The notes under the pieces are model-generated. The model was not told where the DNA came from and ran no database searches. It saw only the letters and a program-made list of their open reading frames with translations. Positions 42,660 through 60,400 of a DNA stretch of 64,000 nt are shown piece after piece (the first letter of the stretch is position 1; each line of letters begins with the position of its first letter). Source of the stretch: Tistrella mobilis KA081020-065 (GTDB lineage Bacteria > Pseudomonadota > Alphaproteobacteria > Tistrellales > Tistrellaceae); the NCBI RefSeq assembly GCF_000264455.2, contig NC_017956.1, positions 2,401,501 to 2,465,500 on the forward strand. Reading direction: 5' to 3'. Both the position numbers and the translations under genes were made by a program.

Positions 42660-42663
42660 GGCC

Positions 42664-44221: not shown

Positions 44222-44405
44222 GTGCGCCCCCGTAACTTGTGGCCGCTCGGATCGCGGCTCTTCGGAACGGGGACGATTAAGAAGACGCGGATCTCACGCC
44301 GGGCAACAGGGAAATGGAGGCGTAGTGCCGTAGCGTAGAAAGGCAGGCCGGGTGCGAAGCCGACAGTCTCGGAAAAAGTCGTGTGGAGCCGCCCACGCTT
44401 TCGCG

Positions 44406-44849: not shown

Positions 44850-44863
44850 AGGCTGAGTTCAGC

Positions 44864-45292
44864 TTATCCAGCGGGAAGCGTCGGGTCGCCCTCGACCTCT
44901 GTAGAGACCTCGCGGCGGAATGGCGAACCCTTCGCCAACCGACGCCCGAGCGCCTCGAGAAAGGCCTCGTAGCGCTCGCCGCCCTTGGCGCGTGCCGCTT
45001 CCTGGTGCGGCTCCGGCAAGCTCGGCATGACGGTCAGCCAGTGGCGCACGAACAGCGCCAGCGTCTCGATCGTGATGGTTTGATCGCGCTCGAGCCGCTC
45101 GACGGCGCGCGAAAGCCTGTCCAGGCGCGCCGCGATGGCGGCCTCCTGCCGTTCCGTCTCGTCCGGCGTCACAAAAGAGGCGATCGCCGCCTCGGCGACG
45201 AGCGACAGGGAGCGGTCGCGACGCTCGGCATAGGCGGCGAGCGCCCGCATGATCTCCGGCTCGAGATAAACTGACAGACGGTGTTTGCGCAT
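44864..45292 (-). CDS. CopG/RHH family protein downstream of TraG
   Basis: The 142-residue protein has an N-terminal ribbon-helix-helix (HRLSVYLEPEIMRALAAYAE, RRDRSLSLVAEAAIASF) and a helical C-terminus (ARLDRLSRAVERLERDQTIT). In many ICEs a CopG-family gene follows traG and may assist DNA processing. It is 9 bp behind traG. Confidence 0.8.
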   Translation of the reverse strand: MRKHRLSVYLEPEIMRALAAYAERRDRSLSLVAEAAIASFVTPDETERQEAAIAARLDRLSRAVERLERDQTITIETLALFVRHWLTVMPSLPEPHQEAARAKGGERYEAFLEALGRRLAKGSPFRREVSTEVEGDPTLPAG

Positions 45293-45301
45293 GCCCGGCT
45301 C

Positions 45302-47302
45302 CTACAGCTCGATGCCGTCACCGGGGTCGAGCGCAGCCTGTCGCGCCACGGCGCGGAAGCGGCGCTGCAACGTTCGAGCCCTGACCGCCTCGTCGTCGGG
45401 TTCGTCCTCGCCGTCCTTGTCGAATGCGAACTCGCGGCGCACCTCGGCATCCTCTGGCGCGAGCGCCACCTGCTCCGGCAGGTTTGGTTCGCGCCGCAGG
45501 CCCGCATTGGGCTCCGCCTGATCTTCGTCGCCCGCCCGCTCGGCCGCGAGCGCCTGCGGGGGCGCCGCGATCGGGGGTGCGGCGCTCCAATCGTCGCGCC
45601 CGGGTGGCGGATCTCCTGTGAGGTCGGCGGGTGTCGGCGGGCGCAGGATGCGGCGCTGCAGCTGCGGATCCTCGAAGTAGCGGGCCTTCTTGGCGCGGAT
45701 CGGCGGACAGCCGGAGACGAGCACCAGTTCGTCCGTCGGCGGCAACTGCATGACCTCGCCGGGGGTGAGCAATGGTCGCGAGGTCTCCTGGCGGCTGACC
45801 ATCAGGTGGCCGAGCCAGGGCGACAGCCGGTGGCCGGCGTAGTTCTTCATCGCCCGCATCTCGGTCGCGGTGCCGAGCGCGTCAGACACACGCTTGGCGG
45901 TGCGCTCGTCGTTGGTGCTGAAAGCGACCCGAACATGGCAGTTGTCGAGGATCGCATTGTTCGGACCGTAGGCTTTCTCGATCTGGTTTAGCGACTGGGC
46001 GATCAAGAAGCTCTTCAGGCCGTAGCCCGCCATGAACGCGAGCGCGCTTTCGAAGAAGTCGAGCCGTCCCAGCGCCGGAAACTCGTCGAGCATGAGCAGC
46101 AGCCGGTGCCGGCGGCGCTTGCCCTCCAGCTCTTCCGTGAGACGGCGGCCGATCTGGTTCAACACCAGGCGGACCAGCGGCTTGGTCCGCGAGATGTCGC
46201 TCGGCGGCACGACCAGGTAGAGCGTGACCGGGCGATCGTCCTCGACGAGGTCCGCGATGCGCCAGTCGCAGCGCCGCGTCACCTGCGCCACCACCGGGTC
46301 CCGATAGAGGCCCAGGAACGACATGGCGGTCGAGAGCACGCCAGACCGCTCGTTCTCGGACTTGTTCAGGAGCTCGCGCGCGGCGCTGGCGACCACCGGA
46401 TGCGGACTGTCTCCAAGGTGCGGCGTCGCCATCATGATCTTGAGCGTCGACTCGATCGGGCGTTTGGGATCGGAGAGGAAAGTGGCGACGCCGGCGAGCG
46501 TCTTGTCTTTCTCGGCGTAGAGGACGTGGAGGATGGCGCCGACAAGCAGCGCGTGGCTTGTCTTCTCCCAGTGGTTCCGGCGCTCGATACTCCCCTCCGG
46601 GTCGACGAGGATGTCGGCGATGTTCTGGACGTCGCGGACCTCGCAGTCGCCGCGGCGGACCTCGATCAGCGGGTTGTAGGCCGCGCTTGCTGCGTTGGTC
46701 GGGTCAAACAGGAGCACGCGCCCGAACCGCGCGCGCCAGCCAGCCGTGAGGCCCCAGTTCTCGCCCTTGATGTCGTGGACGATGGCGGAGCCCGGCCAGG
46801 TCAACAGCGTCGGTACGACCAAGCCCACGCCCTTACCGCTCCGGGTCGGGGCGAAGCAGAGCACATGCTCCGGGCCATCGTGGCGAAGATAGTCGCGGCC
46901 GAGCCGACCGAGCACGGCGCCGTCGGGGCCGAGGAGGCCCGCCGCGCGGACCTCGCGCTCGTTGGCCCAGCGCGCCGAACCGTAGGTTGTTACGTCCTTT
47001 GCTTCGCGCGCCCGCCACACCGACATGGCGATCGCTACCGCGATCGTGACGAAGCCGCCCGACCCAGCGATGATCGCCCCCTCGACAAAGATGTCCGGCG
47101 CGTAGGCGTCGTACCAATACCACCACAGGAAAAATGACGGCGGGTGATAGACGGGCCAGCCGCCAAGCTCGAACCAGGGCGGCCCGAGCTGCGGCTGGAA
47201 GCCCAACCGCCAGGCCGTCCACTGCGTCGCGCCCCAGACAAAGGCCAGCGCGATCAGGCTGACGGTGATGACCTGGCCCCAAAGGATCTTGGTGGCGTAC
47301 AC
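45302..47302 (-). CDS. traG: Type IV coupling protein TraG/VirD4
   Basis: This 666-residue ATPase links the relaxosome to the mating channel. It has two N-terminal transmembrane helices (VITVSLIALAFVWGATQW, IFVEGAIIAGSGGFVTIAVA), Walker A CFAPTRSGKGVGLVVPTLL near residue 150 and Walker B LLLMLDEFPALGRLDFFE near 400. The acidic C-terminal tail is typical. It is followed by CopG and preceded by the relaxase. Confidence 0.95.
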   Translation of the reverse strand: MYATKILWGQVITVSLIALAFVWGATQWTAWRLGFQPQLGPPWFELGGWPVYHPPSFFLWWYWYDAYAPDIFVEGAIIAGSGGFVTIAVAIAMSVWRAREAKDVTTYGSARWANEREVRAAGLLGPDGAVLGRLGRDYLRHDGPEHVLCFAPTRSGKGVGLVVPTLLTWPGSAIVHDIKGENWGLTAGWRARFGRVLLFDPTNAASAAYNPLIEVRRGDCEVRDVQNIADILVDPEGSIERRNHWEKTSHALLVGAILHVLYAEKDKTLAGVATFLSDPKRPIESTLKIMMATPHLGDSPHPVVASAARELLNKSENERSGVLSTAMSFLGLYRDPVVAQVTRRCDWRIADLVEDDRPVTLYLVVPPSDISRTKPLVRLVLNQIGRRLTEELEGKRRRHRLLLMLDEFPALGRLDFFESALAFMAGYGLKSFLIAQSLNQIEKAYGPNNAILDNCHVRVAFSTNDERTAKRVSDALGTATEMRAMKNYAGHRLSPWLGHLMVSRQETSRPLLTPGEVMQLPPTDELVLVSGCPPIRAKKARYFEDPQLQRRILRPPTPADLTGDPPPGRDDWSAAPPIAAPPQALAAERAGDEDQAEPNAGLRREPNLPEQVALAPEDAEVRREFAFDKDGEDEPDDEAVRARTLQRRFRAVARQAALDPGDGIEL

Positions 47303-47422: not shown

Positions 47423-49162
47423 TCATCCGATCCCCAGCCCCCGCTTCCGGCCGAAGCTCCAGTCGACGCCTCCGCCCGACAGCGCCACGCCCGCGACCTG
47501 CTGGCCGAGTCGCTTCTCCAGTGGATCGCTCCACGGTACGAGCTGAAAACCCATGCCGTCGTCGAGCATCGCGAAGCGACCAGAGGCAAGGGCCACGCGC
47601 CGGCGCACCACGCCCGCGACATGCTCGCCCTCGCCCGCGGGCTGATGGGTAAGGCCGGTCTCGGCCGCGATCCGCGCCGCCGCCCCGTCGAGCTCGCGCC
47701 GCCGAAGCGTCGAGAGCAGGTCGCGCGCGAACACCACCTGCCGGCCCTGCCGCCGCGCCAAGCCCTCGGTCGCGAGATGATCGGCCCGCCGTTGCAGCGC
47801 CTCCTCCACTTCCCGGCCGAAGCCGCTGTCGGCCCGCGCCGCCGGCGCGCGGCCTACGAGCTGGCGGTCGAGCCAGGTCGCCCCCTCCGCTGTCACCTGC
47901 GCCTCCAAGCTGAAGTCCGATCGCACGGCCACCAGCAGCCGGGGGCGCTTACCCTCGGCTGCTTCGGTCCAGCGCGCCTCGACCACGGCGCCGACCGGCG
48001 CATCGCTCGCCGCGTCCAAGTCGGGCAGACGGATGTGGTGCGCGCGCCCGTCCACGCCGTCGATCACAACGAACGCCGAGCCGGCGAGTTCGTCATCGAG
48101 CCCACGCGCTGAGAGCCGACCGAGCACGGGCGCCCCCGCCGCGGCGCCGTCGAGTACGAAGGTGGCGGGGCTGCGCTCGAAGCCCTGATCCCCCATCTCT
48201 CGGTGCAGGCGCGCGATAATGTCGCCGCGAAGCTGCAGCTCGCGCAAGCTCGCTTCGGCGGTGTCGGGGAGCTGCCACTGTGCGGGGCCGAGCGGCTCGG
48301 CGATCCCGAGCGCCTCCAGCTTCCGCATCCGTCCCACCTTGAGCCCGTGCATCTCGTTGGGCCGTTCGCCGAACCGGGGCCGAAGGTCGACGACGCCGTT
48401 CACCGTCTCGCGCGCGAGCTGGCGGTCGAGCCCGGTCCAGCGCTCCGCCTCCACCTCGCGCTCCTGGCCGCGCCGGATCTCCTGCTCAGTGCGCGGCCCC
48501 AGCTCGAGCGCTGCCCGCTCGGACGCGCGGGCGCGTAGGCCCTGGCCGATATAGTCGCGCGAGATAACGAGGTTCTGGCCGTCCTCGGCCCGTCCTCGCA
48601 CGAGTACATGGACGTGCGGGTGCTCGGTGTTCCAGTGATCGACCGCGATCCAGTCGAGCTTTGTCCCGAGGTCGCGCTCGGCGGTCGCCATCAGATCGCG
48701 CGTGTAGGCCCGAAGGTCCGCGAGCTCACCGGCGTCCTCCGGCGAGACGATGAAGCGGAAGTGGTGCCGGTCCTCCTCGCACCGCCCGGCGAACGCCTTG
48801 TGATCGGCGTCGTCGCTGGCGGCATCGAACATCCGGCCGGGCGAGCCATCGCGGGTGACGCCGTCGCGCCGGAGATAGTTGAGGTGCGCGGTGAGCGGCG
48901 CGCGCTTGGCGCCATGCCGCACCACCCGCGCCTTCACGGTCACCAGCCGAGCGTGGCGGCCAAGCCCGCTGCCCGCCCGCAGGCTGGCCGCCCGGCCGCG
49001 TCCGAACGCGCTGCGGCCGGCGCCTGAGCGCGAGCCCCGTTGCCTAACGCCGCCCGCCTTCTCGGCCGCGGCCAGCGCTTGCGTGATGAACGGCTTGGTG
49101 CGCGGCGCCCGCGTCGAGCGGATGCGCCCGGGGCGGATGCGCAGATCGTCGTCGCGGCTCAT
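47423..49162 (-). CDS. VirD2/TraI-type relaxase (DUF3363)
   Basis: This 579-residue relaxase nicks oriT. The N-terminal domain contains AHLNYLRRDGVTRDG, HHFRFIVSPEDAGELADLRA and the metal-binding His cluster VDHWNTEHPHVHVLVRG; the C-terminal DUF3363 region (about 280-579) is characteristic of ICE relaxases. The start is ATG 49162, preceding the conserved MSRDDDLRIRPGRIRS. A candidate oriT lies just upstream. Confidence 0.92.
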   Translation of the reverse strand: MSRDDDLRIRPGRIRSTRAPRTKPFITQALAAAEKAGGVRQRGSRSGAGRSAFGRGRAASLRAGSGLGRHARLVTVKARVVRHGAKRAPLTAHLNYLRRDGVTRDGSPGRMFDAASDDADHKAFAGRCEEDRHHFRFIVSPEDAGELADLRAYTRDLMATAERDLGTKLDWIAVDHWNTEHPHVHVLVRGRAEDGQNLVISRDYIGQGLRARASERAALELGPRTEQEIRRGQEREVEAERWTGLDRQLARETVNGVVDLRPRFGERPNEMHGLKVGRMRKLEALGIAEPLGPAQWQLPDTAEASLRELQLRGDIIARLHREMGDQGFERSPATFVLDGAAAGAPVLGRLSARGLDDELAGSAFVVIDGVDGRAHHIRLPDLDAASDAPVGAVVEARWTEAAEGKRPRLLVAVRSDFSLEAQVTAEGATWLDRQLVGRAPAARADSGFGREVEEALQRRADHLATEGLARRQGRQVVFARDLLSTLRRRELDGAAARIAAETGLTHQPAGEGEHVAGVVRRRVALASGRFAMLDDGMGFQLVPWSDPLEKRLGQQVAGVALSGGGVDWSFGRKRGLGIG

Positions 49163-49275
49163 GGTGCGATCCGGCGCGAGGTGCGGAATTGCGAGAATTT
49201 CCAGGCGTTGCGGCGTTTGCACAGGCTGCGGGCTCCCGGCGCACATCGTGCCAAGTGCTTGTTTTGCCGTGCCTC

Positions 49276-49336
49276 GACCCCCGACCGACCGCCGCGCACA
49301 TCGCGGCCTTTATCTTGCCATCGGTCGGTCGGGGTC
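49276..49336. other. Candidate origin of transfer (oriT)
   Basis: GACCCC-C-GACCGACCG (49276-49291) pairs with CGGTCGGTCGGGGTC (49322-49336) as a 15-bp stem with one bulged base. The loop holds a nested CCGCG-CACAT-CGCGG hairpin and the motif TATCTTGCCA at 49311-49320. This differs by one base from the TATCCTG^C nick of RP4 and of Ti T-borders. It lies 114 bp upstream of the relaxase gene. Confidence 0.6.
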
Positions 49337-49365
49337 TCCCTCCCAGCCTGCCTCCCTGCCCAGCG

Positions 49366-49393
49366 TGCGATGGACTGCGACAGAATGCGATGG
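49366..49393. repeat. TGCGATGG direct repeat beside the oriT candidate
   Basis: TGCGATGG occurs at 49366-49373 and 49386-49393, 20 bp apart (two helical turns), next to the oriT inverted repeat and before the end of the lytic transglycosylase gene. Such repeats often bind relaxosome accessory proteins. Confidence 0.35.
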
Positions 49394-49406
49394 GTGCTTG
49401 AGCGGC

Positions 49407-50318
49407 TCATGGATGCGGCTCCGGCTGAGATCGCGGCACGAACAGGCCGCCGGAGGGGGATGCAGGCTGCAGTTCATTGGCGCTGGCGGTGCGCTCCGTC
49501 TGCACGGCGGTGGCGGATGGATTGGCTGCCGGATTGCGCGCCGACGGCGCTCCGAGCGACGCAGACCTGGCTGTCAGCGTGGCCATGAACTGTGCTTCCT
49601 CAGCGGTGAGCGCGCCGCCCGGAACGGCGGCCGTTTGCACCGCCGACGGACCCAGGCTGCCCGCGCGGCTAACGAAGATCGGCGCAGCGAGCGGGTTCGT
49701 GACGCGAGCGACTGGCGCGCCGGCCGACATCGGAAATACCGCGCCGCCGATGACCGGAGCGATCATGGCGACGTAGTTCTGCGTCTCCCACGGCAGCGGT
49801 CGGCCTCGTGTCAGATAGTCGTCGTAGCGCCCGGGACCGGCATTGTAGGCGGCGAGCATGCCTTCGACCGTGCCGTAGCGGTCGTGCATCTCCCGCAGAT
49901 ACGCAGCGCCTGCCAGGATGCTCTCGCGCGGATCGTAGGCGTTCGCACCGAAGCCGTATCGGGCACGCAACTCGGCCCAGGTCTGCGGCATGACCTGCAT
50001 CAGGCCCATCGCGCCCTTGTGCGACGTGGCGCTGGGATCCCCGGCGCTCTCGACGCGCATGACGGCGCGAATCCAGCTCTCCGGCACGCCGAAGCGGTGC
50101 GACGCCTCGGCCACGAAGGCGGCGTAGGAATTGCCCGGCACGGCCCTGACCGGCGGAGGCGACTCGACAACAGGAGCGCCGGGCGAGACGGTGGACGATA
50201 GCGGCGAGTAGGCGACAGGATTGATCGGCTCGGCACTCGACGGGGCGAGGCCGACCAACAGCATCAGCGCGGCGGAGGCGACGGCCGCGAACAGCGGCGA
50301 GAGCAAGGGCGAGCGCAT
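49407..50318 (-). CDS. Lytic transglycosylase of the conjugation system
   Basis: This 303-residue SLT-type muramidase has an N-terminal signal helix (LFAAVASAALMLLVGLAP) and a catalytic domain with ESWIRAVMRVESAGDPS (catalytic Glu), GLMQVMPQTWAELRARYG and MLAAYNAGPGRYDDYL. It opens peptidoglycan for the channel (VirB1/TrbN role). The tail after residue 190 is low-complexity. The ATG is 2 bp behind traF. Confidence 0.9.
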   Translation of the reverse strand: MRSPLLSPLFAAVASAALMLLVGLAPSSAEPINPVAYSPLSSTVSPGAPVVESPPPVRAVPGNSYAAFVAEASHRFGVPESWIRAVMRVESAGDPSATSHKGAMGLMQVMPQTWAELRARYGFGANAYDPRESILAGAAYLREMHDRYGTVEGMLAAYNAGPGRYDDYLTRGRPLPWETQNYVAMIAPVIGGAVFPMSAGAPVARVTNPLAAPIFVSRAGSLGPSAVQTAAVPGGALTAEEAQFMATLTARSASLGAPSARNPAANPSATAVQTERTASANELQPASPSGGLFVPRSQPEPHP

Positions 50319-50320
50319 CC

Positions 50321-50839
50321 TCAGCGCTCCTCGTCCGTCCACACGGGGACGGCGCGACCAATAAGGGAAGAGGTCAGCAGCGCCCCGAAATACCGGCCAT
50401 CAAGCGAGTCCGGTTCGTTCCAGTTGAGGAGGAACACCTCGCCGTCGCGGAGCTGGCGGCAGCCGCTCCAGGACGGCAGCACGCGGCCCAGTCGGTCGCG
50501 TTCGCGCGCCTGTGTCCAGACCACGCCGTCGATGCTGACGGCGGCACCGTCGCGGCAGATCGTCTGACCTGGAAGGGCGGCGATCCGTTTCAGAAGCGGC
50601 GCGCCGTAGCCGAGGTAGCCGCCGTCGGCGAGAAAGGCGGCAAGCGGCTCCGGCGGCTTCACCACGACAAGCTCGGTGAGCTTGGGCTGCCCGAGTGGCT
50701 GCACCGCGTAGAGCCCCACCGGCACGCTGGCCGAGGCGTTCCAGACGAGCTTTGGTGGCGGCTCGATGAAGGCCGTGAGCGCCACGACGGACGCCGCGAT
50801 ATACGTCGTGACGAGGACCTTCCATTTGAACTCGCTCAT
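50321..50839 (-). CDS. traF: TraF-like S26 signal peptidase
   Basis: The 172-residue membrane peptidase has a transmembrane helix (VLVTTYIAASVVALTAFI), the catalytic Ser in NASASVPVGLYAV and Lys in LLKRIAALPGQTI. TraF of RP4 cyclises the TrbC pilin. It overlaps the DUF2840 gene by 4 bp. Confidence 0.9.
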   Translation of the reverse strand: MSEFKWKVLVTTYIAASVVALTAFIEPPPKLVWNASASVPVGLYAVQPLGQPKLTELVVVKPPEPLAAFLADGGYLGYGAPLLKRIAALPGQTICRDGAAVSIDGVVWTQARERDRLGRVLPSWSGCRQLRDGEVFLLNWNEPDSLDGRYFGALLTSSLIGRAVPVWTDEER

Positions 50840-51300
50840 GCCGTCATCTCCCGTCTGAGCAGCCAGGCGCGATGCCGATCGCGCGCGTAAGGGCGCGGCT
50901 CTTGGCCGGCGCTGATGCGGTTGTGGACATGCCGCCAATGGTCCGGGCACGCGTCCTCGGGCGGCAGCCCAAGCGCGTCGACGGCGTCGACCGCGGCGAG
51001 CACGGATTGAACCTTCGGCCAGCCCGAGATGCGCAGCAGGACCTCGCCGCCGGGCGTCACGCCAGGGACGGTCGAGCATGGCTCGCCGGGGCCGCAGGCG
51101 CGCAGGATGTCGACGCGGGAGACGAGCGTGCCGTAGTCGTTGGACGCCCAGCGGGCGAAGGCGAAGACGCTGCCCGGCGCGAAGGCGACGACGCGCCGGC
51201 GGCGGTCCAGGATTTGTTCGTGCGCGATCCGGCCGAACCGGATCCAGCGCTCGATCTTCCCCTCGATCCAGAGGAGCTCGACGTGCGTGAGGCCGCTCAT
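50836..51300 (-). CDS. DUF2840 protein
   Basis: This 154-residue protein matches DUF2840: VELLWIEGKIERWIRFGRIA, RRVVAFAPGSVFAFARWASN, YGTLVSRVDILRA. It is found between the ParA/RHH genes and traF in many ICEs; the function is unknown. It overlaps the RHH gene and traF by 4 bp each. Confidence 0.82.
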   Translation of the reverse strand: MSGLTHVELLWIEGKIERWIRFGRIAHEQILDRRRRVVAFAPGSVFAFARWASNDYGTLVSRVDILRACGPGEPCSTVPGVTPGGEVLLRISGWPKVQSVLAAVDAVDALGLPPEDACPDHWRHVHNRISAGQEPRPYARDRHRAWLLRREMTA

Positions 51301-51542
51301 CGCGCGCTGCCGGCGTCGTCGGGGAACTCGCGCTCGAGCAGCGCGCGCAGCATGTCGGAGACGGTCTGGCCGCGCCGGAACGCGGTCACCTTGATGCGCC
51401 CGCGCAGCTCCGGCGTGACGTCGATCGTGAGCCGCGCGGTGTAGGCTTCGACCGCGGTGACCGGCTTGTCCGGCGCGCGAACCCAGGCATCCGGCGAGGA
51501 CGGCCGGGAGGCGAAGGAGCGCTTGGCGTCGCGGCCGCTCAT
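51297..51542 (-). CDS. Ribbon-helix-helix partition-like protein
   Basis: This 81-residue protein has a C-terminal RHH: AYTARLTIDVTPELRGRIKV, then RRGQTVSDMLRALLERE. The N-terminal 30 residues are basic and unstructured. Placed directly behind parA with a 4-bp overlap, it may be the DNA-binding partner of ParA (as ParG or omega are). Confidence 0.78.
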   Translation of the reverse strand: MSGRDAKRSFASRPSSPDAWVRAPDKPVTAVEAYTARLTIDVTPELRGRIKVTAFRRGQTVSDMLRALLEREFPDDAGSAR

Positions 51543-52177
51543 GACGCCAGCCCGTCGATTTCGGCCGCCACGGCGGCGATCTCCTGCGCCGCGATCAGCC
51601 CGGCCGGCACCTCGTGGACGAGCCGTCCGGTGCGCGCGGTGTCTGCAAACGCGATGCGTTGGCCGACACGACTGCCAAGCACCGGCGGGTCATGGTCGGC
51701 CAGCGCCTCGGCCGTCTCGCGGGCGATCACCGTGCGCGCAGCGCAGCGGTTGAGCAGCATGCGAGCGCGCAGCTCGGGGCGGAACACCCGCGCCTCGTCG
51801 AGCAACCGAAGCATCTCGGCCGAGGCCCAGCCGTCAAACGGCGACGGCTGCACCGGCACGAGGATCAGGTCGGCGGCGAGCAGCGCCGAGCGCGCGATGC
51901 CGGTGACGCGCGGGGGCCCGTCGATGACGACCCGATCGTAGCCGGCGGCGATCTCCGGCAGCTCGCGGTGCAGCGTCTCGCGGGCGAGGCCGAGCACGCC
52001 GAAGGGCCGCGGCAGGCCCTCGCGGGAGCGCTGCTCGGACCAGTCGAGCGCCGAGCCTTGCGGATCGGCGTCGACGACGAGCACCCGCTTTCCCTTGTCG
52101 GCCCAAGCACCGGCGAGATGCAGCGCAAGCGTCGTCTTCCCGACGCCGCCCTTCTGGTTGAGGAGCGCGACAATCAC
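51539..52177 (-). CDS. parA: ParA family partition ATPase
   Basis: The 212-residue P-loop protein has the deviant Walker A ALLNQKGGVGKTTLALHLAG, VVDADPQGSALDWSE and VVIDGPPRVTGIARSALLAA. This is a short ParA without an N-terminal HTH. It would keep the replicating form of the element. It overlaps repA by 4 bp. Confidence 0.92.
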   Translation of the reverse strand: MIVALLNQKGGVGKTTLALHLAGAWADKGKRVLVVDADPQGSALDWSEQRSREGLPRPFGVLGLARETLHRELPEIAAGYDRVVIDGPPRVTGIARSALLAADLILVPVQPSPFDGWASAEMLRLLDEARVFRPELRARMLLNRCAARTVIARETAEALADHDPPVLGSRVGQRIAFADTARTGRLVHEVPAGLIAAQEIAAVAAEIDGLAS

Positions 52178-53247
52178 GGGGCGCCTCCCGTGCCGGCGCG
52201 GCGTTTTCCACCGTTGTGGTCGGCCCCAACAACAAAGTTAGATTCTGAGTTAGGGAAGTTAGAGTCCGGCCGATCGGCGCGAAGCTCTAGTGAAAGCTGG
52301 GATCCCGGCGAGTCCGCGTGCGCCCGAAGTCCCGATAGGGATGCGCCCGAAGTCCCGATATCCGTGCGCCCGAAATCCCGATATGCGATCTCGCTCGTCC
52401 CCAGCTTATCCACAGCCGCGGCGAGCGGCATCGGACGCATGGCGATCAGCGCCCGGCCGGTCTCATCGTGCTCGAGGGCGAGCGCATAGCCGGGGAGCGG
52501 CTGGCGGGCGACGATGCGGCGCAGATCGAGCGCGAAATCGGAGAACCGCGCCTGGCTGGCGCTCTTGGCGTGCAGGTGTTTGAGGTCGAAGCGCCAGCCC
52601 TCCGGCTGGCGGCCGGCGTGCTTCCTGGCAACGCGGTAGAGCCAGCGCTCGATACCGCCGGTGAGCCGGAAGTAGGCCGGATCGATGGTGAGGACGAGCC
52701 GCCGGTCGAGGACGCCCTGGTAGAACCAGTCGGGGAGCACGAACTCCATGCCCTCGCACCGGCCCGGGGCGGTCGTCAGCTCCTCCCACTCGTTGATCCA
52801 GGAGAACTGCTGGCGGCGCCACTGCTCGCCGTGGCGGATCGTGGTGCGGATGACGGTGGATTGGAGCCGCGTCAGCGCACCTTTGAGGAGCTGGTACTCC
52901 CGGTTGCCGGTCGCGCGGCCGATCGCCGTGAGGAGCTGGTAGGGCGTGAAGCGGAAGAAGCGCGAGGTGGGCAGGCCGCGATCGAGCGCCTCGACGATGT
53001 GGGAGCCGGCCCAGATCAGGATGTCGGCGTCCCAGATGGTGGCGAGCCCGTGCTCGGGGACGGCATAGACCTGGACCTCCGTTCCGGATGCTTTGTAGAG
53101 GATGGGCTTCACGCGCTTGGCCTTGGCGAGGGAGAAGAAGGGCCGCTCCATGAGGTCGCGCTGGTCGCGCGGCGGCACGTCGCCGGCGAGCGCCTCGAAC
53201 GGGTCGAGCGTCGCCCGCTCGCTTGCGTGGAAGCGGCTGCGCGGCAT
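52174..53247 (-). CDS. repA: Replication initiator protein RepA (RPA family)
   Basis: This 357-residue initiator has the RPA pattern: LMERPFFSLAKAKRVKPILY, VYAVPEHGLATIWDADILIW and FFRFTPYQLLTAIGRATGN, then a winged-helix region with YFRLTGGIERWLYRVARKHA. The last 80 residues are variable, and their DNA carries iterons, a DnaA box and an AT-richer block. It heads the maintenance operon with parA. Confidence 0.9.
   Translation of the reverse strand: MPRSRFHASERATLDPFEALAGDVPPRDQRDLMERPFFSLAKAKRVKPILYKASGTEVQVYAVPEHGLATIWDADILIWAGSHIVEALDRGLPTSRFFRFTPYQLLTAIGRATGNREYQLLKGALTRLQSTVIRTTIRHGEQWRRQQFSWINEWEELTTAPGRCEGMEFVLPDWFYQGVLDRRLVLTIDPAYFRLTGGIERWLYRVARKHAGRQPEGWRFDLKHLHAKSASQARFSDFALDLRRIVARQPLPGYALALEHDETGRALIAMRPMPLAAAVDKLGTSEIAYRDFGRTDIGTSGASLSGLRAHADSPGSQLSLELRADRPDSNFPNSESNFVVGADHNGGKRRAGTGGAP
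52237..52263. repeat. GTTAG repeats in an AT-richer block at the end of repA
   Basis: GTTAGA, GTTAGG and GTTAGA start at 52237, 52249 and 52258 in a short stretch with clearly lower GC than its surroundings. This could be the duplex-unwinding element of the candidate origin. It also encodes SNFPNSESNF of RepA. Confidence 0.4.
52320..52383. repeat. Three iterons with 23-bp period inside repA
   Basis: The 18-bp sequence GCGCCCGAAGTCCCGATA occurs at 52320-52337 and 52343-52360 exactly, and at 52366-52383 with one change. The 23-bp period (two helical turns, not a multiple of 3) means the repeat is kept for its DNA, not its protein. Iterons like these bind RepA at replication origins. Confidence 0.8.
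52406..52414 (+). promoter_or_regulatory. Perfect DnaA box TTATCCACA beside the iterons
   Basis: TTATCCACA matches the high-affinity DnaA box exactly and starts 22 bp after the last iteron. With the iterons and the AT-richer block it forms the standard set of a small RepA-type origin. Confidence 0.75.
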
Positions 53248-53262
53248 CGGAGCAGCGGGCGG

Positions 53263-53550
53263 TCAGCGGCGGGCGGCGTGGCCGGCGTAGGCCGGCGACA
53301 CGGCGGCGTGCCGCTTGGCCGGGCGCACCTCGCCGATGCCGGGATCGGAGGTGGAGCACTTGGCTCCCTGGTCGGCCCAGGCCTGCAGGTCGGTGATCGC
53401 GTAGACGACGCGGCCGCCGATCTTGCGGTAAGTGGGGCCGGTGCCGTAGGTGCGGTGCTTCTCCAACGTGCGGCCACTGAGGCCGAGGAAGCGCGCCGCT
53501 TCAGGCGTCCTGAGATAGCGCGGCGGGAGACCGGCGAGCGGATCGGGCAT
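53263..53550 (-). CDS. AlpA/excisionase-like HTH protein
   Basis: This 95-residue protein has an HTH_17 domain: RYLRTPEAARFLGLSGRTLE, KHRTYGTGPTYRKIGGRVV and YAITDLQAWADQ. Such proteins are excisionases or repA regulators in ICEs. It starts 13 bp upstream of the repA start region and may control its operon. The C-terminal tail is variable. Confidence 0.82.
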   Translation of the reverse strand: MPDPLAGLPPRYLRTPEAARFLGLSGRTLEKHRTYGTGPTYRKIGGRVVYAITDLQAWADQGAKCSTSDPGIGEVRPAKRHAAVSPAYAGHAARR

Positions 53551-53656
53551 GAGCTAACCTCCGTGTGCTCGAAGGCGACGCATGGGGTAGCGCGTCGCAT
53601 CGAGGCGCACGGTCGGGCACGCCAGGGCCGTTGCTCAGGGTCGAAGTTAGGAGGGC

Positions 53657-54530
53657 CTAGGAGCGACCCTGCCGCCGCTTCAGCGGGCGCAGCAGGTCGC
53701 GGTAGCCGCCGGCAATCAGCTTCTCGGCGTCGCGCAGCAGCCGGCGCACCCAGCTCCGCGCGTCGCTCTCGGCCCAGTCGGCGCCGGGCTCGACTCCGAG
53801 CATGATGCGCGCGATCTCGCGCCGGCTCATGCCGGCTCGCTGGAGGTCGAGCGCCCAGAGCATCAGGCCAAGGCGCAACGGATCATGGCGCGGCCAGGCC
53901 AGCGGCGCTGGTGGCCGGCGAGAAACCGGCGGGTCGGCGGCCAGTCGCCAGAACCGCAGCGCCGCTTCCGTCCGCTCCTGCCCGTATCCGTCCGGATGGA
54001 CGTAGAAGCCCAGCACCGTCCCGAGCGGCGGGACCGTGCTGCGCCGGGGCAGCCAGAGGCGCAAGGAGCCGGCGGGCGCGCCGGTCGTGACGATGTGGAC
54101 GCCGTCCTCGGCGATGAGCAGATGCTTGCGGCCGGGCCAGCGCCAGGGATCGAAGACAATGCGGGGCGCGTCAGTCCAGGGCGGCGGCGGCGGGATCAGG
54201 CAGACGACGTCGACGAGCCAGTCGGGTCGCCAGAAGATCGCTTCGACCTCGTCAGCCCGGAGCGCAGGGTCCGGGGCGAAAGGTCAACCCCCATCGCCCC
54301 AGCGGGTCGCGCGGCGCCGACCAGGGCAGCCGACTGGACGAGATCGTCGACTTGGGCGGGGAGCGGCGAGTCGCGTCGGTCGGCGACGCAGACGCAGCTG
54401 CGAGCGGACCGGCAACCTCGTCGCGGAACTTGGGATTGCGGCGCAGGAACTCCCAGGCGAGGCCCTGGCCGTCAAGGTCGAGCGAGTAGCGGTAAGCGGC
54501 CGGAAGCCGCCAAGCCTCTTGGGCTCTCAT
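53657..54530 (-). pseudogene. DUF6499/DUF2285 regulator split by a one-base insertion
   Basis: The N-terminal part (WRLPAAYRYSLDLDGQGLAW, EFLRRNPKFRDEV) is a DUF6499 domain. The frame reaches GRWGLTF and then breaks. The next frame begins mid-sequence with APDPALRADEVEAIFWRP and runs through LRLWLPRRS to the DUF2285 domain (RREIARIMLGVEPGADWAES). One extra base in the AAA run at 54279-54281 (TTT in the coding strand) explains the shift, and a stop follows immediately upstream in the second frame. Intact relatives are single proteins of about 290 residues. It is either a mutation or a sequencing error. Confidence 0.75.
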
Positions 54531-54715
54531 TGGCATCTCCCATTCGTGTGCGCGCAAGGCGCGCAGTCATCCCAAGAGGTTGAAGGAATGGGAAGATTCT
54601 ACCAGACCGGGCTTGGCCATACGGCCAATGGTTAATCCGGGGATGCGCAAAACCGCAGTGCCGTATCGGCGGCTTTACGGAGAACCGCTATGCCGGCGAA
54701 GCCCAACTCCCGCCG

Positions 54716-55000
54716 TCAGTGGAGTCGAGCCTCTCGCAGCAGGTCGGCGTAGCCGCTCTCTGTCATCCACCTGGCGCGCGTCAGGTGCGTGTCGTAGGCG
54801 CGGCGCGCGCGAGCCGGCTCGCGTGCGGGATCGATGCGGAGCACGAGCTGGCACGCCTCCTCCCAAGTCGCGGTCGGGTCTTCCAGCGAGTCGAGCAGGC
54901 GCATGTAGGTGACGACGTGCAGCCGGTCGTAGTCGGTCAGCGCAGAAACGGTCGGCGCTTCATCTTGAATATCGGGTTCCAATTCGGCCTTGATCCGCAT
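54716..55000 (-). CDS. DUF2285-like small protein
   Basis: This 94-residue protein (ALTDYDRLHVVTYMRLLDSL, CQLVLRIDPAREPARARRAY, TESGYADLLREA) resembles the C-terminal DUF2285 domain of ICE regulators and repeats the final YADLLR motif of the neighbouring gene. The ATG at 55000 has GGAGGGACG upstream. It is probably a regulatory DNA-binding protein. Confidence 0.72.
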   Translation of the reverse strand: MRIKAELEPDIQDEAPTVSALTDYDRLHVVTYMRLLDSLEDPTATWEEACQLVLRIDPAREPARARRAYDTHLTRARWMTESGYADLLREARLH

Positions 55001-55236
55001 CGTCCCTCCTTTCCGAGCCGGCCTCGGCCGCTCATTCATTGGAGACAGATCTTTCACGAGGGCCGGCAGCGGCCCGCATACGCCGGTGACGAAAGATTCA
55101 CCAAAACAACTCTCGGCATTCAACCTGATCTTCCTGACGGCACTGCGACGCAAGGAGCATCAGCGGTGAGCGCGGGACAGACCTTATGAACTATAGGTAA
55201 TAAACTCAATCGGCGCCGCTGGCCAAGGCTGACCGC

Positions 55237-55494
55237 ATGGACATGCGGCGGTTGGTCGGGCGGAACGTCAGGAGGGCAAGGCAGGCGAAGGGGCTCACCC
55301 AGGAGCAGCTCGCCGAGGGCGCCGGATTCTCTCAGAAGTATGTGAGCGATCTGGAGCGAGGGCTCGAGAACCCGACCGTCATCACCCTGTTCGAGCTCGC
55401 GCAGCGCCTCGATACGACGCCGGTCGCGCTGATCACGCCGGACGAGGAAGCGATCCGGGAAACCGGGAAGGCGAACGGTCTTCGGACCAAATAG
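55237..55494 (+). CDS. XRE-family transcriptional regulator
   Basis: The 85-residue protein is one helix-turn-helix: RRLVGRNVRRARQAKGLTQE, QLAEGAGFSQKYVSDLERGL and NPTVITLFELAQRLDTTP. It diverges from the DUF2285 gene, as master regulators of ICE transfer commonly do. Confidence 0.9.
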   Translation: MDMRRLVGRNVRRARQAKGLTQEQLAEGAGFSQKYVSDLERGLENPTVITLFELAQRLDTTPVALITPDEEAIRETGKANGLRTK

Positions 55495-55528
55495 CGAGGT
55501 TGCGGCTGCTCCGCATGCAGCGCTACGG

Positions 55529-55543
55529 TGTTATAGTGTAACA
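55529..55543. promoter_or_regulatory. TGTTA-N5-TAACA palindrome before the methyltransferase
   Basis: TGTTATAGTGTAACA is an inverted repeat with 5-bp arms around a TATAGT that could serve as a -10 box. It ends 15 bp before the GTG start. The upstream XRE protein is a candidate to bind it. Confidence 0.35.
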
Positions 55544-55557
55544 TCCGGAGATCAGGC

Positions 55558-56391
55558 GTGAGCGACTCGGCGGCTGCCATCATCCACGATTCGGATACTT
55601 GGGACGCGACGGCCGCAGACTATGAGGCGCTGGCCGAGCCGTTCACGCGGCAGTACGCCGAGAAAGCGCTGGAGCTGGCTGGCGGCGTGGGTCCCGGCGA
55701 GCGCGTGCTCGACGTGGCGGCCGGCACCGGCGCGCTGACGCTCGCGGCGGCCCGCGCCGGGGCGCGGGTGCTCGCGACCGACTTCTCGCCCGGCATGGTC
55801 GCACGGCTCGGGGAGCGGCTGCGGAGCGAGGGCTTCGATCGCGCCGGCTGCGAGGCGCGGGTGATGGACGGTCAGGCGCTTGAGCTGCCGGACGGCGGCT
55901 TCGACGCGGCGTTCTCGATGTTCGGCGTCATGCTGTTCCCTGACCACCGCAAGGGACTTGCCGAGCTCGCCCGGGTGCTGCGGCCCGGAGGGCGAGCGGC
56001 CGTGGCCGTCTGGACCCGTAAGGAAGGCGCGGGTCCGGCGCTCGTGCTGGTGGACGCGTTCCGGTCGGCGTTTCCGGACCGCGAGGCGCCGTCATTCCCG
56101 GCGCCCGGGATGAGGCGGCTTATGCACGCCGACGCGCTGGCGGAAGACATGCGCGAGGCGGGCCTGCGCGAGGTGACGGTCACGACCGTCACTGGGGCGT
56201 GGACCGCGCCCTCGGCCGAATGGGTGGCGGACAACGTCGACCGGCTCTACCGTCAGTTCCCGCTTTATGCCGCGCTCGGCGAAGGCGAGCGCCGGCAGGT
56301 GCGCGAGGCGATCCGCGAGCGCCTCGGCCGCACGAGCGCAGGCGAGGTGCGGATCGAGTCCGACGCCCATGTGGGCGTTGGCCACCGCTGA
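55558..56391 (+). CDS. Class I SAM-dependent methyltransferase
   Basis: This 277-residue protein has the SAM motif VLDVAAGTGALTLAAARAGA, then VLATDFSPGMVARLGERL and FDAAFSMFGVMLFPDHRKGL, as in UbiE/Coq5-like small-molecule methyltransferases. The start is GTG 55558 with GGAG seven bases upstream. It follows the XRE gene on the same strand. The substrate is unknown. Confidence 0.85.
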   Translation: MSDSAAAIIHDSDTWDATAADYEALAEPFTRQYAEKALELAGGVGPGERVLDVAAGTGALTLAAARAGARVLATDFSPGMVARLGERLRSEGFDRAGCEARVMDGQALELPDGGFDAAFSMFGVMLFPDHRKGLAELARVLRPGGRAAVAVWTRKEGAGPALVLVDAFRSAFPDREAPSFPAPGMRRLMHADALAEDMREAGLREVTVTTVTGAWTAPSAEWVADNVDRLYRQFPLYAALGEGERRQVREAIRERLGRTSAGEVRIESDAHVGVGHR

Positions 56392-56422
56392 CTCTCTCTG
56401 CAAGCGACCATCAAGCGCGCGA

Positions 56423-56451
56423 ACGCCCCGCCCGGGTATCGGGCGGGGCGT
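56423..56451. terminator. Perfect 12-bp hairpin between convergent genes
   Basis: ACGCCCCGCCCG and CGGGCGGGGCGT form a perfect 12-bp GC-rich stem around a GGTAT loop. It lies between the ends of the methyltransferase and DUF736 genes, so it is probably a bidirectional terminator. The core occurs again in reverse at about 57387-57418. Confidence 0.7.
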
Positions 56452-56465
56452 CCTGGCCCTCCGGC

Positions 56466-56789
56466 TCAGTCGCCGCGGCGGCCGTTCGGGCGGGACCAGA
56501 TGAGGCTGTGGCTCTTGCCGTCCTCGTCCTCGAAGAGGTTGGCGTAGATGGGGGCGGTGAAGCTCGGGTCGTCGAGCTTGAGGCCGAGGTAGTCGCGGCC
56601 CTCGTTCGAGCGCTTCTCCCAGGCGGCCCCGATCTCGGCGCGGCCGACGAAGACCCGGTGCGAGGGGGCGTTCTCGTTGGTCCGGTTCTGTTCGGGGACG
56701 ATGCGGACGTTCTTGGCCTGAACCGAGAGGGTGACGATCTCGCCGGTGAACTCGTTGCCGGACTTCTTGAAGGTGCCGATGGTCGCCAT
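56466..56789 (-). CDS. DUF736 protein
   Basis: This 107-residue protein starts MATIGTFKKSGNEFTGEIVT and has VFVGRAEIGAAWEKRSNEGR and YLGLKLDDPSFTAPIYANL, the complete DUF736 pattern. DUF736 proteins are near-universal on alphaproteobacterial plasmids and ICEs; a single-strand-binding or defence-related role has been suggested but is not established. Confidence 0.9.
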   Translation of the reverse strand: MATIGTFKKSGNEFTGEIVTLSVQAKNVRIVPEQNRTNENAPSHRVFVGRAEIGAAWEKRSNEGRDYLGLKLDDPSFTAPIYANLFEDEDGKSHSLIWSRPNGRRGD

Positions 56790-56912
56790 GGTAGTCTCCT
56801 GTTTCGCTGTCTCGAGCCCGCGCCCATCGCGGCCTCGATGGCGGTCGCCCGGCCGGGGGCGGTCGACGACGCAGCCTTCAGGCCCGCAGCAGAGCGGAGG
56901 ACGGCGGCAGAG

Positions 56913-56962
56913 CGACTTTCTTGCCTCGCGAGGAATGAGCGAAGCTCAGGGGAAGAAAGTCG
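56913..56962. repeat. Large hairpin with two nested hairpins
   Basis: CGACTTTCTT (56913-56922) pairs with AAGAAAGTCG (56953-56962) over 10 bp. Inside the loop are CCTCGCGAGG (56924-56933) and GAGC-GAA-GCTC (56937-56947). The set could fold into a cloverleaf in single-stranded DNA or RNA. Confidence 0.6.
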
Positions 56963-57386
56963 AGCGGCCGCCGTTGCGGCTCAGGCGACCGAGGCAAAGC
57001 CGGCCCTCGGCCAGACCAGGCCATTGAAGAGGCGGCGTGGGACGCGGCACCTGAACAGCGCTTCCACAGGAGACGTGGCGGGCATTGGCTCCTTGCCTCA
57101 AGAGGTCGCAGACGATCGTAGCGTGATCGGCGGCTCCGGCGTGCAGACCGGCGGGTGCATTCCCTGCAACTCTGGACTGGACGGAACGCCTCCGACGCGG
57201 TCCGCTCGCGGAACTGCTGCCGAGTCGCCGCGCCTGCATCAAGCGCTACGAGGGCAGGAGCTTCTCTGAGACCAAGCGCTCCCAAACGTCACCTCACCCC
57301 TATGCCGATCGCGAGCCGAAGCGGACCGATCAAGCCGTCCGGTCCTGCCACGGCAGGTCAGCGGCACCCGAAGGTGGCCGATGCTC

Positions 57387-57466: not shown

Positions 57467-60400
57467 TCAGCGGAAATCCCGTGAGCGCACCTGAATGGCA
57501 GCCGGCGCCGTGGGATCGGGGATACAGACGTCGCGCGGCTTCATCGTCGGAAGCTTGGGCGAGCGTGGGTCCGGGCCTGCTCCGCCGCCCCGGATCTCGT
57601 CGCCGCGGCCGTGCGGAACCGCCAGCCCGTCGTCGCCGGCTCCGATCATCCTCAGCATGTCGGTGAAGTCGTAAAGCTGCTCGGCGATGACGTGGATGAC
57701 CTCGCCGTCCTTCTGCACGCGGCCGGTGCAGCCGATCATCTCGGCCGAGCGCACTAGGCGCTCCTCGCGCTCGAAGAGCTTCGGCCAGACGATAAGCTGG
57801 GCGTAGGCCGTCTCGTCCTTCAACGTCACGAACACGACGCCTTTGGCGCTGCCCGGCATCTGCCGGAAGCGCACGATCCCGGCGACGGTGACGCGCCGCC
57901 CGTCGCGGGCGCGCTTCAGCGCGGCCGCGGGCAGGATGTTCATGGCGTCGAGCTCCGGGCGCAGGAAGGCGACCGGATGCTGGCGCAGGGTGAGGCCGAG
58001 ATTGCGGTAGTCCTCGACCACCTCCTCGCCGGCGGTGAGCGGCACGAGCGTCACCGCCGCCTCTTCGATCTCCGGGCGGATGAGCCCGTCGCGGAGGTCG
58101 GCCACCGCGAACAGCGGCAGCGGCTCGCCCTTCAGGCCCTTCGCGGCCCAGGCCGTCTGGCGACGATCGAGGTCGAAGGACTGAAAAGCGTCGGCGTCGG
58201 CCAGCCGTTTCATAGCGGCGGCCGACACGCCGGAGCGCAGCCACACCTCCTCCACGCTCGCGAACGGTGCGGGCCCGCGCGCGGCGACGATGCGGGCCGC
58301 ATCGGCATCGCGCAGGCCCTTCACGAGCCGCATCCCTAACCGGACGGCGAAGCCGCCGGTGCTGCTCGGGCACGGCTCCAGCGTGCAGTCCCAGCGCGAA
58401 TGGTTGGCGTCGACCGGGCGCACCTCGACGCCGTGCCGGCGCGCATCGTCCACGAGGTCGTCGACCGAGTAGAAGCCCATCGGCTGGGCGTTGATGATCG
58501 AGGCCAGGAAGGCGTCCGGGTGATGGTGCTTTGCCCAGCTCGACGCATAGGCGATGATCGCGAAGGAGGCGCTGTGAGACTCGGGGAAGCCGTAGCTCCC
58601 GAAGCCCTTGATCATGTTGAACATGCCTTGGGCGAAGTCGCGCGGGTAGTTGTTGGCGACCATGCCTTCCACGAAGTCGGCCTCGAAATGGCTGACCCCG
58701 CCCGTGTATTTGAAGGTGGCCATGCTGCGCCGGAGCTCGTCCGCCTTCGAGGCGGAGAAGCCGGCGCATCGGATGCTGAGCGCCATCGCGTGTTCTTGAA
58801 ACAAGGGCACGCCGTGCGTCCGGCCGAGCACCTCTTCGAGCTCGGGCGTGAGGAAGGTGTAGGTCTCGATCCCGAGCCGGCGCCGGATGAACGGATGCAC
58901 CATCTGGCCCTGGATGGGGCCGGGCCGGATCAGCGCGATCGAGATGACAATGTCATACCATTCGCGCGGGCGCAGCTTCGGGAGCATGGCCTGTTGGGCT
59001 CTCGATTCGATCTGAAAGACGCCGATCGTCTCGGCCCGGCAGATCATGTCGTAGACGGCCGCGTCCTCGGCCGGGACGGTGGCGAGATCGTAGTCGAGGC
59101 CCTTGTGGCTGCGTAGCAGCTCGAAGAAGCGGTGCATGCAGCCGAGCATCCCGAGCCCCAGGATGTCGACCTTCATCATCCTCAAGGCGTCGATGTCGTC
59201 CTTGTCCCATTCGATGACGGCGCGCTTCTCCATGCGCGCCGGCTCGATCGGGACGATCTCGTCCAGGCGATCCTCGGTGAGCACGAAGCCGCCCGGATGC
59301 TGCGAGAGGTGCCGGGGCACGCCCATCAGGTGACGGTGGAGCCGCAGCGCCAGCTTCACCCGGTAGTCACCGAGGTTCAGGTTGACCTCGCGGGCGTGCT
59401 TCTCGGTCACGCCCTCGCTCGACCAGGACCAGACGAGCCGGGTGAGCTGGAGGATGACGTCGCGCGGGAAGCCCAGCGCCTTGCCGACGTCGGCCATGGC
59501 GCCGCGCGAGCGGTAGCGGACGACGGTGGAGGTGAGCGCAGCCCGGTCGCGCCCGTAGCGCTCGTAGATCCATTGGATGACTTCCTCGCGGCGATCGCTG
59601 TCGAAATCGACGTCGATGTCCGGCGGCTCGGCCCTGTTGCGGCTGACGAAGCGCTCGAAGAGGACATTGTTTCTCGCTGGGTCGATCGACGTGATGCGGA
59701 GGCAGAAGCACACCGCGCTGTTGGCCGCGCTCCCCCGGCCCTGGCACAGGATGTCCTGGCTTCGTGCGAAGGCGACGATGGAGCGCACCGTGAGGAAGTA
59801 AGGCGCGTAAGCGAGCTCCTCGATCAGCGCGAGCTCGTGGCGGATCTGCTTTGCGACCTTCTCGGCCACGCCGTCGGGATAGCGCTCGGCCGCGCCCTCC
59901 CAGGTGAGCTTCTCGAGCGCCTGCTGCGGCGTGAGGCCGGGGATCAACGCCTCCGTCGGGTACTGGTACTTGATCTCGGCGAGCGAGAAGCGGCAGCGGT
60001 CCACAACCTCCAACGTCCGCGCGACGGCCTCGGGATGCTCCTTGAAGAGCCGCGCCATCTCCGCCGGGCTTTTCAGGAAGCGGTCGGCGTGGCGCTCGCG
60101 CCTGTAGCCGAGCGCGTCGACCGTGCATTTCTCGCGCACGGCCGTGACCACGTCCTGCAGGATGCGGCGCTCCTCGGCGTGGAACAGCACGTCGTTCGTC
60201 ACGATCGTCGGCACGCGCGCTCGCGCCGCGAGGCCGGCGAGCGCGTGGAGCCGCAGCGCCTCGTCCGGCCGGAACCGCGGCGTGAGCGCCAGATACGCCC
60301 GGTTCCCGAATGCCGCCCGCAGCCGCGAGAGGTTCGCGGCCAGCTCGTCGCCGGGCTCGCCGGCCAGCAGCACGGCGAGGAGCCCCGCCCCGTGCTCCGC

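Follow-up and report, generated by a model that had tools for sequence, protein, structure and literature searches.

Gene content of the element

A replication initiator gene, repA, lies on the minus strand at positions 52174–53247 of the Tistrella mobilis DNA analyzed here, a stretch of 64,000 nucleotides that is called the window below. Its product is 357 amino acids long, and residues 27–256 match the Pfam family RPA (PF10134; E = 2.8e-83). This is the only Pfam family found in RepA, and no RepA_N initiator domain was detected in the protein. The stop of repA is part of a GTGA sequence, which is an overlap with the start of parA (51539–52177, minus strand), a gene for a ParA-type ATPase. 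On the same strand, parA is followed by a gene for a ribbon-helix-helix-like protein (51297–51542) that may be the partner of ParA; its matches to RHH_10 and ParD both fall below the Pfam cut-offs. The HTH_17 protein encoded directly upstream of repA (53263–53550, minus strand) is probably a recombination directionality factor (rdfS), since its neighborhood matches that described for rdfS. The interval between rdfS and traF of Mesorhizobium ICEs contains DUF2840 and a putative Rep_3 initiator (PMC8627217).

The genes of a conjugative element are also present. These encode a relaxase-like protein (DUF3363; 47423–49246, minus strand), a T4SS/trb cluster with the traG coupling protein (TrbI, CagX, VirB8, TrbE-like, T2SSE, and T4SS-DNA_transf; 34906–47302, minus strand), and a tyrosine integrase (14955–16208, plus strand). 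The left end is an 11-bp direct repeat, CACAACCACCC, at 14727–14737, whose second copy is at G000:C1:2503418–2503428. Homology to the empty sites of G001 (same species) and G002 (same genus) stops at window position 14737, and the continuation of the G001 empty site resumes at G000:C1:2503418. Because of this continuation and the presence of CACAACCACCC at both ends, the length of the element is estimated to be ∼87.2 kb. The target appears to be a radC-like gene, since HNHPSGDP can be read from the sequence adjacent to the junction.

The window holds the left 49 kb of the element, including the integrase, cargo, trb/traG, the relaxase, the repA operon, and a dnaE2/imuB cassette. The core cluster repA–parA–DUF2840–peptidase–relaxase–traG–trb is present, and the order from repA to the peptidase is the same in annotated relatives. 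As in the window, Tn4371-type ICEs have the order HTH, repA, parA, parB-like, DUF2840, S26 peptidase (Ryan et al. 2009, PMC2789088). The attB of Tn4371 is described as 8 bp (PMC2789088), whereas the repeat of this element is 11 bp and lies in a radC-like gene. Judged from its sequence, this ∼87-kb element is classed as an ICE with a core of the Tn4371 type. Apparent cargo includes dnaE2 and imuB-like error-prone repair genes (57467–62244), and genes near the integrase for an Abi-like protein, a 1197-amino-acid helicase, and a PLD-domain protein (17506–23650) look like defense cargo.

A candidate origin within the 3′ end of repA

From codon 278 of repA to its stop, the gene carries, in the direction of its transcription, a DnaA box, three iterons, and a set of CTAAC repeats. 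The perfect DnaA box, TTATCCACA, is located at 52406–52414 on the plus strand, begins at about codon 278, and is conserved in relatives. The iterons are on the minus strand with a period of 23 bp: iteron 1, TATCGGGATTTCGGGCGCA, at 52365–52383 (codon frame 0); iteron 2, TATCGGGACTTCGGGCGCA, at 52342–52360 (frame 2); and iteron 3, with the same sequence as iteron 2, at 52319–52337 (frame 1). The AT-rich CTAAC (GTTAG) repeats at 52237–52262 (minus strand) are a candidate DNA unwinding element. Their copies, at 52237–52241, 52249–52253, and 52258–52262, are spaced 9 and 12 nt apart and sit in a dip of the GC content to 54% (52200–52299), the surroundings being mostly at 65–77%.

A preliminary description of this DNA had proposed a replication origin buried in the coding end of repA, and all of its pieces are found where it had put them, within the last 80 codons of the 357. 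Its iteron period was also correct, but the repeats are 19–21 bp long rather than 18 bp. The iteron array has a TRF score of 101, the highest of the 47 TRF rows in the window. A scan for further iteron-like sites above 16 bits in the window returned none, and a single weak match of 15.3 bits occurs at 55542. No sigma-70-like promoter was found in 51400–54300, and the same scan gave one terminator-like site, no more than in shuffled sequences. Rfam models do not match anywhere in 49000–57000.

Among the features expected of an origin, the sequence thus displays direct repeats about two helical turns apart beside a rep gene, a DnaA box, and AT-rich repeats. A tandem winged-helix initiator is present by structure prediction. 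In the AlphaFold model of RepA, residues 33–277 (52417–53151, minus strand) are predicted to form a tandem winged-helix initiator fold like that of RctB and RepE. The tail encoded by the origin, codons 278–357 (52177–52416, minus strand), is predicted to be disordered, with pLDDT values below 50 at residues 277–356. The model was built from a 38-sequence alignment; the best of five models has a mean pLDDT of 60, and the other four range from 47 to 53. Structural comparison of residues 33–277 (VIA-align) gave a Z score of 14.2 with RctB (5ubf; 233 aligned residues, rmsd 5.0) and 9.6 with RepE (8ac8; 191 aligned residues, rmsd 5.6). A sequence-profile search of the PDB with RepA returned only chance-level matches to ribosomal proteins (best E = 0.056). 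RepA is therefore predicted, from its modeled fold, to be an initiator of the RepE/RctB type whose folded part ends near residue 277, where the DnaA box starts.

Conservation of the module in close relatives

A scan of GTDB genomes was used to collect relatives of repA. The best 80 matches listed have RepA proteins that are 62%–73% identical over the best segment, and these matches, the window, and L004 make up a set of 82 loci. Seven more loci complete a main clade of 89 listed loci with 61%–73% RepA identity. These 89 are not all independent, and 51 are left below 95% identity among those with 24+23 spacing. One locus, L117, was excluded from the main clade; it has a 154-residue RepA match, no iterons, and a self-similarity score of 31 in the test described below.

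Iterons lost from close relatives that keep the protein tail had been named in advance as evidence against an origin. This pattern was not seen: in every one of the 82 loci (the best 80 listed, the window, and L004), a PWM scan located iterons toward the end of the repA frame. Three copies are present in 77 and two copies in 5, one of which is cut by a contig end. Since the PWM was trained on these same loci, an independent test of three-copy self-similarity was also applied. Scores of at least 40 of 51 were obtained for 106 of 129 loci, including 83 of the 89 in the main clade, and the best score among all shuffles (20 per locus) was 37. The window scores 49, and the best of 20 shuffles of that stretch scores 31. 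The main-clade loci below 40 are L009 and the two-copy loci L072, L078, L079, L082, and L086. Because of these scores, their anchors are considered unreliable; they are included in the counts, mostly as misses. The same genome also carries a second RPA initiator gene (G000:C2:156222–156929, L002), which lacks an iteron module of the window type, with a self-similarity score of 33 versus 34 for its best shuffle.

The other parts of the module are likewise conserved. Within 80 nt of iteron 1, an exact DnaA box is present in 45 of the 89 main-clade loci and a box with one mismatch in another 32, compared to 0 and 0.6 in shuffled sequences. TAAC words are separated by a multiple of three nucleotides in 168 of 215 cases in the main clade and in 21 of 23 in a second group with an embedded module (see below), compared to 10 of 20 in elements that carry the module outside the gene. 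Four of the two-copy loci (L072, L079, L082, and L086) lack iteron 3 and the adjacent QLxLW codons and keep the CTAAC-type repeats. Overall, the 3′ ends of repA in relatives support the proposal of an origin module that is located in the coding end of the gene and conserved as DNA.

In the main-clade loci, 12 extra iteron matches that score above 15 bits were found at distances of more than 120 nt from the anchor. These include the match at 55542 in the window and two that are the own iterons of L072. Of the other far matches, one is in L031 and the rest, in seven loci, occur at 3.3–4.9 kb, counted from the beginning of the RepA match. A second iteron set upstream of repA was considered and rejected, as the far matches do not lie upstream of the gene. 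In L033, L040, L052, L055, L061, and L083, single iteron-like words (17–22 bits) occur 3.3–4.9 kb downstream on either strand. Another locus, L020, comes from a record titled Brenneria salicis, a gammaproteobacterium, and has an element of alphaproteobacterial type, which reflects either transfer or contamination.

Evidence for selection at the DNA level

The preliminary description had argued that the repeats must be selected as DNA on the grounds that their period is not a multiple of three. This conclusion stands on comparative evidence, whereas the period argument is weak by itself because 71 of the 82 listed loci have a spacing of 24+23, and 24 is a multiple of three. The remaining three-copy spacings are 33+23 (3 loci), 23+23 (2 loci), and 23+24 (1 locus).

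Protein-coding sequence is expected to vary most at third codon positions, and the RPA block of repA does so. For 51 nonredundant loci, the mean column entropies at codon positions 1/2/3 are 0.36/0.25/1.10 in the RPA block and 0.63/0.74/0.71 in the iterons. Substitutions counted in 38 pairs of relatives follow the same pattern, with values of 0.085/0.053/0.274 for the RPA block and 0.111/0.114/0.144 for the iterons. In these pairs the values are 0.100/0.109/0.179 for the QLxLW block, 0.089/0.097/0.120 for the unwinding repeats, and 0.188/0.207/0.250 for the stretch after them. Outside the QLxLW-type motif, the RepA tail is under little constraint at the protein level.

The reading frames of the iterons differ between copies and between loci. 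Among the 82 listed loci, the codon frames are (2,2,1) in 74 and (2,2) in the five with two copies; the deviating cases are the window (0,2,1), L085 (2,1,0), and L004 (2,1,1). In the window and in L085, the three copies occupy all three frames, such that one DNA word is translated as YRDFGRT, IGTSGA, and LSGLRA within the RepA tail of the window. The absence of a third-position signal in the iterons and the reading of copies in three frames indicate, as far as sequence comparison can, that the iteron module is selected at the DNA level. Chance and a protein repeat are ruled out as explanations by the shuffles, the codon-position pattern, and the frame changes.

The iteron word varies between elements. 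Within an element, the copies agree at columns 6, 9, 13, and 14 in 92%–100% of cases and at columns 8 and 12 in 51%–71% (59 loci). When independent pairs of loci are compared, joint changes of copies are seen in 3 of 3 cases at column 6, 3–4 of 4 at column 14, and 0–3 of 5 at column 8. At column 13, the change is joint with copy 1 in 2 of 4 cases and with copy 3 in 3–4 of 4. With 3–4 independent pairs at columns 6, 13, and 14, these data are suggestive, not strong, evidence for concerted change of the iteron copies.

A tail motif that resembles clamp-binding sequences

Between iteron 3 and the unwinding repeats, 73 of the 89 main-clade tails carry the motif QLxLW (46 QLTLW, 21 QLSLW, 5 QLNLW, and 1 QLMLW). 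The window is not among them and has QLSLEL at codons 317–322 (52282–52299, minus strand), which resembles the six-residue form of a clamp-binding motif. A looser pattern fits 80 of the 89 tails, including that of the window. The nine tails that do not fit, one of which is cut by a contig end, are those of L007, L017 (HLSLW), L020 (QLTLC), L063, L072, L078, L079, L082, and L086. The nearest relative of the window, L007, is thus without even the relaxed motif. The QLxLW codons vary as expected for protein code, with values of 0.30/0.34/0.84 at the three codon positions (46 loci), and a pattern wider than QLxLW fits 0.13% of shuffled tails.

Known clamp-binding motifs follow QL(S/D)LF, and a six-residue variant also exists (PMC11139829). 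Tryptophan at position 5 weakened the binding of the Escherichia coli Pol III alpha motif (PMC11139829), and QLPLWG is the motif of mycobacterial ImuB (PMC10421592). In RK2, replisome assembly requires the clamp-binding motif of the initiator TrfA (PMC4980987). By analogy, we infer that QLxLW may be a sliding-clamp-binding motif. The second embedded group, taken with L094, and the split elements were checked with 11 tails and 11 tail frames, respectively, and none of either set fits even the looser pattern. Near the C terminus, 19 of the 89 RepA proteins, including those of L023, L026, L037, and L039, have QPSLP[LF]-like words (18 QPSLP[LF] and one QQSLQL), and these could be a second clamp motif.

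Sister elements keep the module in an open frame

The description of the origin as buried in its initiator gene holds for the window. A sister group of elements has the module beyond the gene, yet still in an open frame. In this split type, RepA ends at 280–300 amino acids, and the module, with 24+23 spacing, follows the repA stop. Such elements include those of the Tn4371 type on beta- and gammaproteobacterial plasmids, those of a Bradyrhizobium type, and some other alphaproteobacterial elements. The second embedded group consists of L087, L101, L103, L105, L116, L124, L125, L127, L130, and L131. A quickly built RPA-domain tree (87 rows, 76 labeled) requires two changes between the fused and split arrangements, with the key branch lacking strong support. 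L009, L072, L079, L082, and L086, whose anchors are unreliable, appear as “out” in this tree.

Stops were counted over a stretch of 181 nt that begins at the iterons, and the repA frame has none there in 86 of the 89 main-clade loci. The three exceptions are two-copy loci in which the counted stretch meets or passes the end of the gene itself. The frame is also open in 10 of 10 other loci (nine of the second group and L094; L101 is outside this count), and the other frames of the same 181 nt contain on average 2–4 stops. The gap from the repA stop to the following gene was checked in 11 split elements; in each of them two frames contain 1–10 stops and the third is stop-free. When anchored on the iterons (by CGTGC in L104, L128, L138, and L139), this is the frame of the fused genes in 13 of 13 cases. 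The next gene is not annotated in L102 and L104, and L137, whose RepA accession is that of L091, was left out.

In 10 of 11 split elements, the last bases of the open frame form a 4-base ATGA overlap with the gene that follows (parA or DUF2840), and in 10 of 11 the length of the gap equals 1 mod 3. The phase is broken in L139, which is one base off from its near copy L128. Possible starts for the frame fall in the DnaA-box-like stretch; they are at −4, overlapping the repA stop, in 7 of 13 elements, at +14 in 5 of 13, and at +11/+26 in L092. The last of these is pKAZ5, in which the split-off origin frame (L092 3361–3624) is annotated as a hypothetical protein. A programmed frameshift that would join RepA with the tail frame was also considered and rejected, as inspection by eye showed no consistent slippery site and in-frame starts at −4 or about +14 look simpler.

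The probability that a shuffled gap is open in this frame is 0.008–0.087 for each element. The product of 3e-13 ignores kinship and is not a p-value, and the gaps are not all independent because three pairs are >75% alike. As controls, 260 nt after repA were examined in four other RPA replicons. Two of these have stops in all three frames, L108 (70% GC) has no stop in any frame, and L093 has none in one frame. The latter, a Novosphingobium plasmid that encodes a 427-amino-acid RPA protein, also carries repeats of 22 bp and CTAAC-like words past the end of repA (after 3721), in what looks like a more distant version of the DnaA box–iteron–TAAC arrangement.

In the main clade, 87 of 89 repA stops have the form NTGA (85 ATGA and 2 GTGA); one is CTAA and one is cut by a contig end. 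NTGA is the pattern of a start/stop overlap, and the next gene is annotated in only some of these loci. We read the NTGA stops and open frames as possible signs of selection to keep ribosomes running through the origin. The location of the split module in the only stop-free frame, which ends in a 4-base overlap, likewise suggests that the origin is kept readable. In the split group, the stretch after the unwinding repeats has values of 0.301/0.283/0.275 (five loci, in nonindependent pairs), and this absence of a codon-position signal suggests that the frame rather than the peptide is kept. In the window, the putative origin is a readable one fused to repA.

Function of the module

The region at 52237–52414 is probably an overprinted oriV, in which the origin of the ∼87-kb ICE and the 3′ coding end of repA use the same DNA, and we infer that the excised element could replicate autonomously. 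RepA would be produced together with the excision factor and ParA and would bind the three iterons as monomers, while host DnaA would bind its box. The CTAAC repeats would melt, and helicase and polymerase would be loaded, in most close relatives with the help of the putative clamp-binding motif QLxLW, whose codons separate iteron 3 from the melting repeats. Theta replication would follow in the excised circle and make its loss less likely. The open frame into the start of the next gene would let ribosomes cross the origin, and repA and the downstream genes would stay translationally coupled.

Other functions can be imagined for such repeats. They lie just upstream of parA, which is followed by the ribbon-helix-helix-like gene, and direct repeats upstream of parA are usual for centromeres of ribbon-helix-helix systems. 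The module might then be a partition site or operator bound by the partner of ParA, with no origin present. However, it persists in L087, L091, L122, L125, L128, L138, and L139, where DUF2840 follows repA and parA is not annotated, which makes a partition site less likely, and the DnaA box and AT-rich repeats are conserved together with the iterons. We consider this explanation improbable. Somewhat less improbable, although still unlikely, is that the iterons are RepA sites for copy control, incompatibility, or autoregulation only, with initiation elsewhere, such as by rolling circle replication from oriT. The Rep proteins of iteron plasmids inhibit as well as initiate (PMC6312765), and ICEs are known to use their relaxase to drive replication at oriT (PMC4489591). 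Against this, the window has no further iteron-like site above 16 bits, and the iterons are accompanied by a DnaA box and AT-rich repeats, which are features of origins.

The module could also be a relic of a plasmid ancestor that is kept and no longer used. The window copy is integrated in a chromosome-sized contig, and of eight plasmid records checked that carry a repA of the window type, seven have another initiator (RepC in five, Rep_3 in one, and a second RPA in one; in the record with the second RPA, the gene matched by Rep_3 is this second RPA itself). The eighth record, typed IncP and rep_cluster_1115, was searched for RepC and Rep_3, and neither was found. No plasmid that clearly depends on window-type RepA alone was seen among these eight records. 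A relic is nevertheless hard to reconcile with the strong DNA-level conservation, which holds among RepA proteins of 61%–73% identity and extends over the deep divide between these elements and the Tn4371 type, and of the explanations considered we give it the least credence.

Under the preferred reading of the module as an oriV, a broader proposal is possible, if short of probable: the whole origin would be obligatorily an open frame. It would act in cis as an origin and also encode the clamp-recruiting tail of the initiator or, in the split lineage, a small separate frame that joins repA with the gene that follows through 4-base overlaps. Ribosomes moving through the origin would then contribute to the joint expression of the excision, replication, and partition genes.

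Relation to known replicons

Tn4371-type ICEs have a homologous module of DnaA box, three iterons, and TAAC repeats with the 24+23 spacing of the window family. In those elements it is downstream of a 280–300-amino-acid RepA as a separate open frame, whereas in the window it is fused into RepA. The replicons RK2 (TrfA), F (RepE), and pPS10 resemble the window in combining a tandem winged-helix initiator, iterons, a DnaA box, and a repeated AT-rich unwinding element. To our knowledge, the origins of these three plasmids lie outside the initiator coding sequence, and no clamp motif is encoded by the origin. The origin of pVS1 is noncoding and located downstream of repA, and its iterons are presumably similar in sequence to those of the window type.

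The RepA of pVS1 is named as a relative of Tn4371 RepA (PMC2789088). In Ryan et al. (2009, PMC2789088), repA is said only to have a possible role in replication, and the word “iteron” is absent. The clamp-binding motif of RK2 TrfA (PMC4980987) is a likeness to the tail motif of the window family. Origins inside initiator genes are described for the Staphylococcus plasmids pSK41 (a RepA_N rep) and pT181, where the residues encoded by the origin are dispensable and, in pSK41, form a linker (PMC5703833). These are Gram-positive plasmids with other initiator families, and the pSK41 origin is in the middle of the gene. An RPA-domain initiator (RPA/Rep_3) with iterons, an AT-rich stretch, and a DnaA box forms a working mini-replicon in pUT1/pPDL2 of Sphingobium, with the origin upstream of repA rather than in its 3′ end (PMC3516476). 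This kind of arrangement is therefore already known, since origins within rep genes (PMC5703833) and replication of an RPA iteron replicon (PMC3516476) have both been described. In the open-access papers searched, an overprinted, readable ICE origin with a putative clamp motif was not found, nor was a paper that joins Tn4371 with the term iteron; a description in subscription papers is possible.

If the interpretation is correct, a widespread class of proteobacterial ICEs carries a plasmid-type oriV that is hidden by annotation inside repA, and the line between ICEs and plasmids would therefore be thinner than assumed. Element stability, copy number, and incompatibility would be testable with a 300-bp fragment. 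The locus would also be a clean natural case of overprinting, in which the same 19 bp are read in three frames of one gene and a protein motif lies between DNA signals. These findings suggest that integrated elements of the window type can copy themselves like plasmids.
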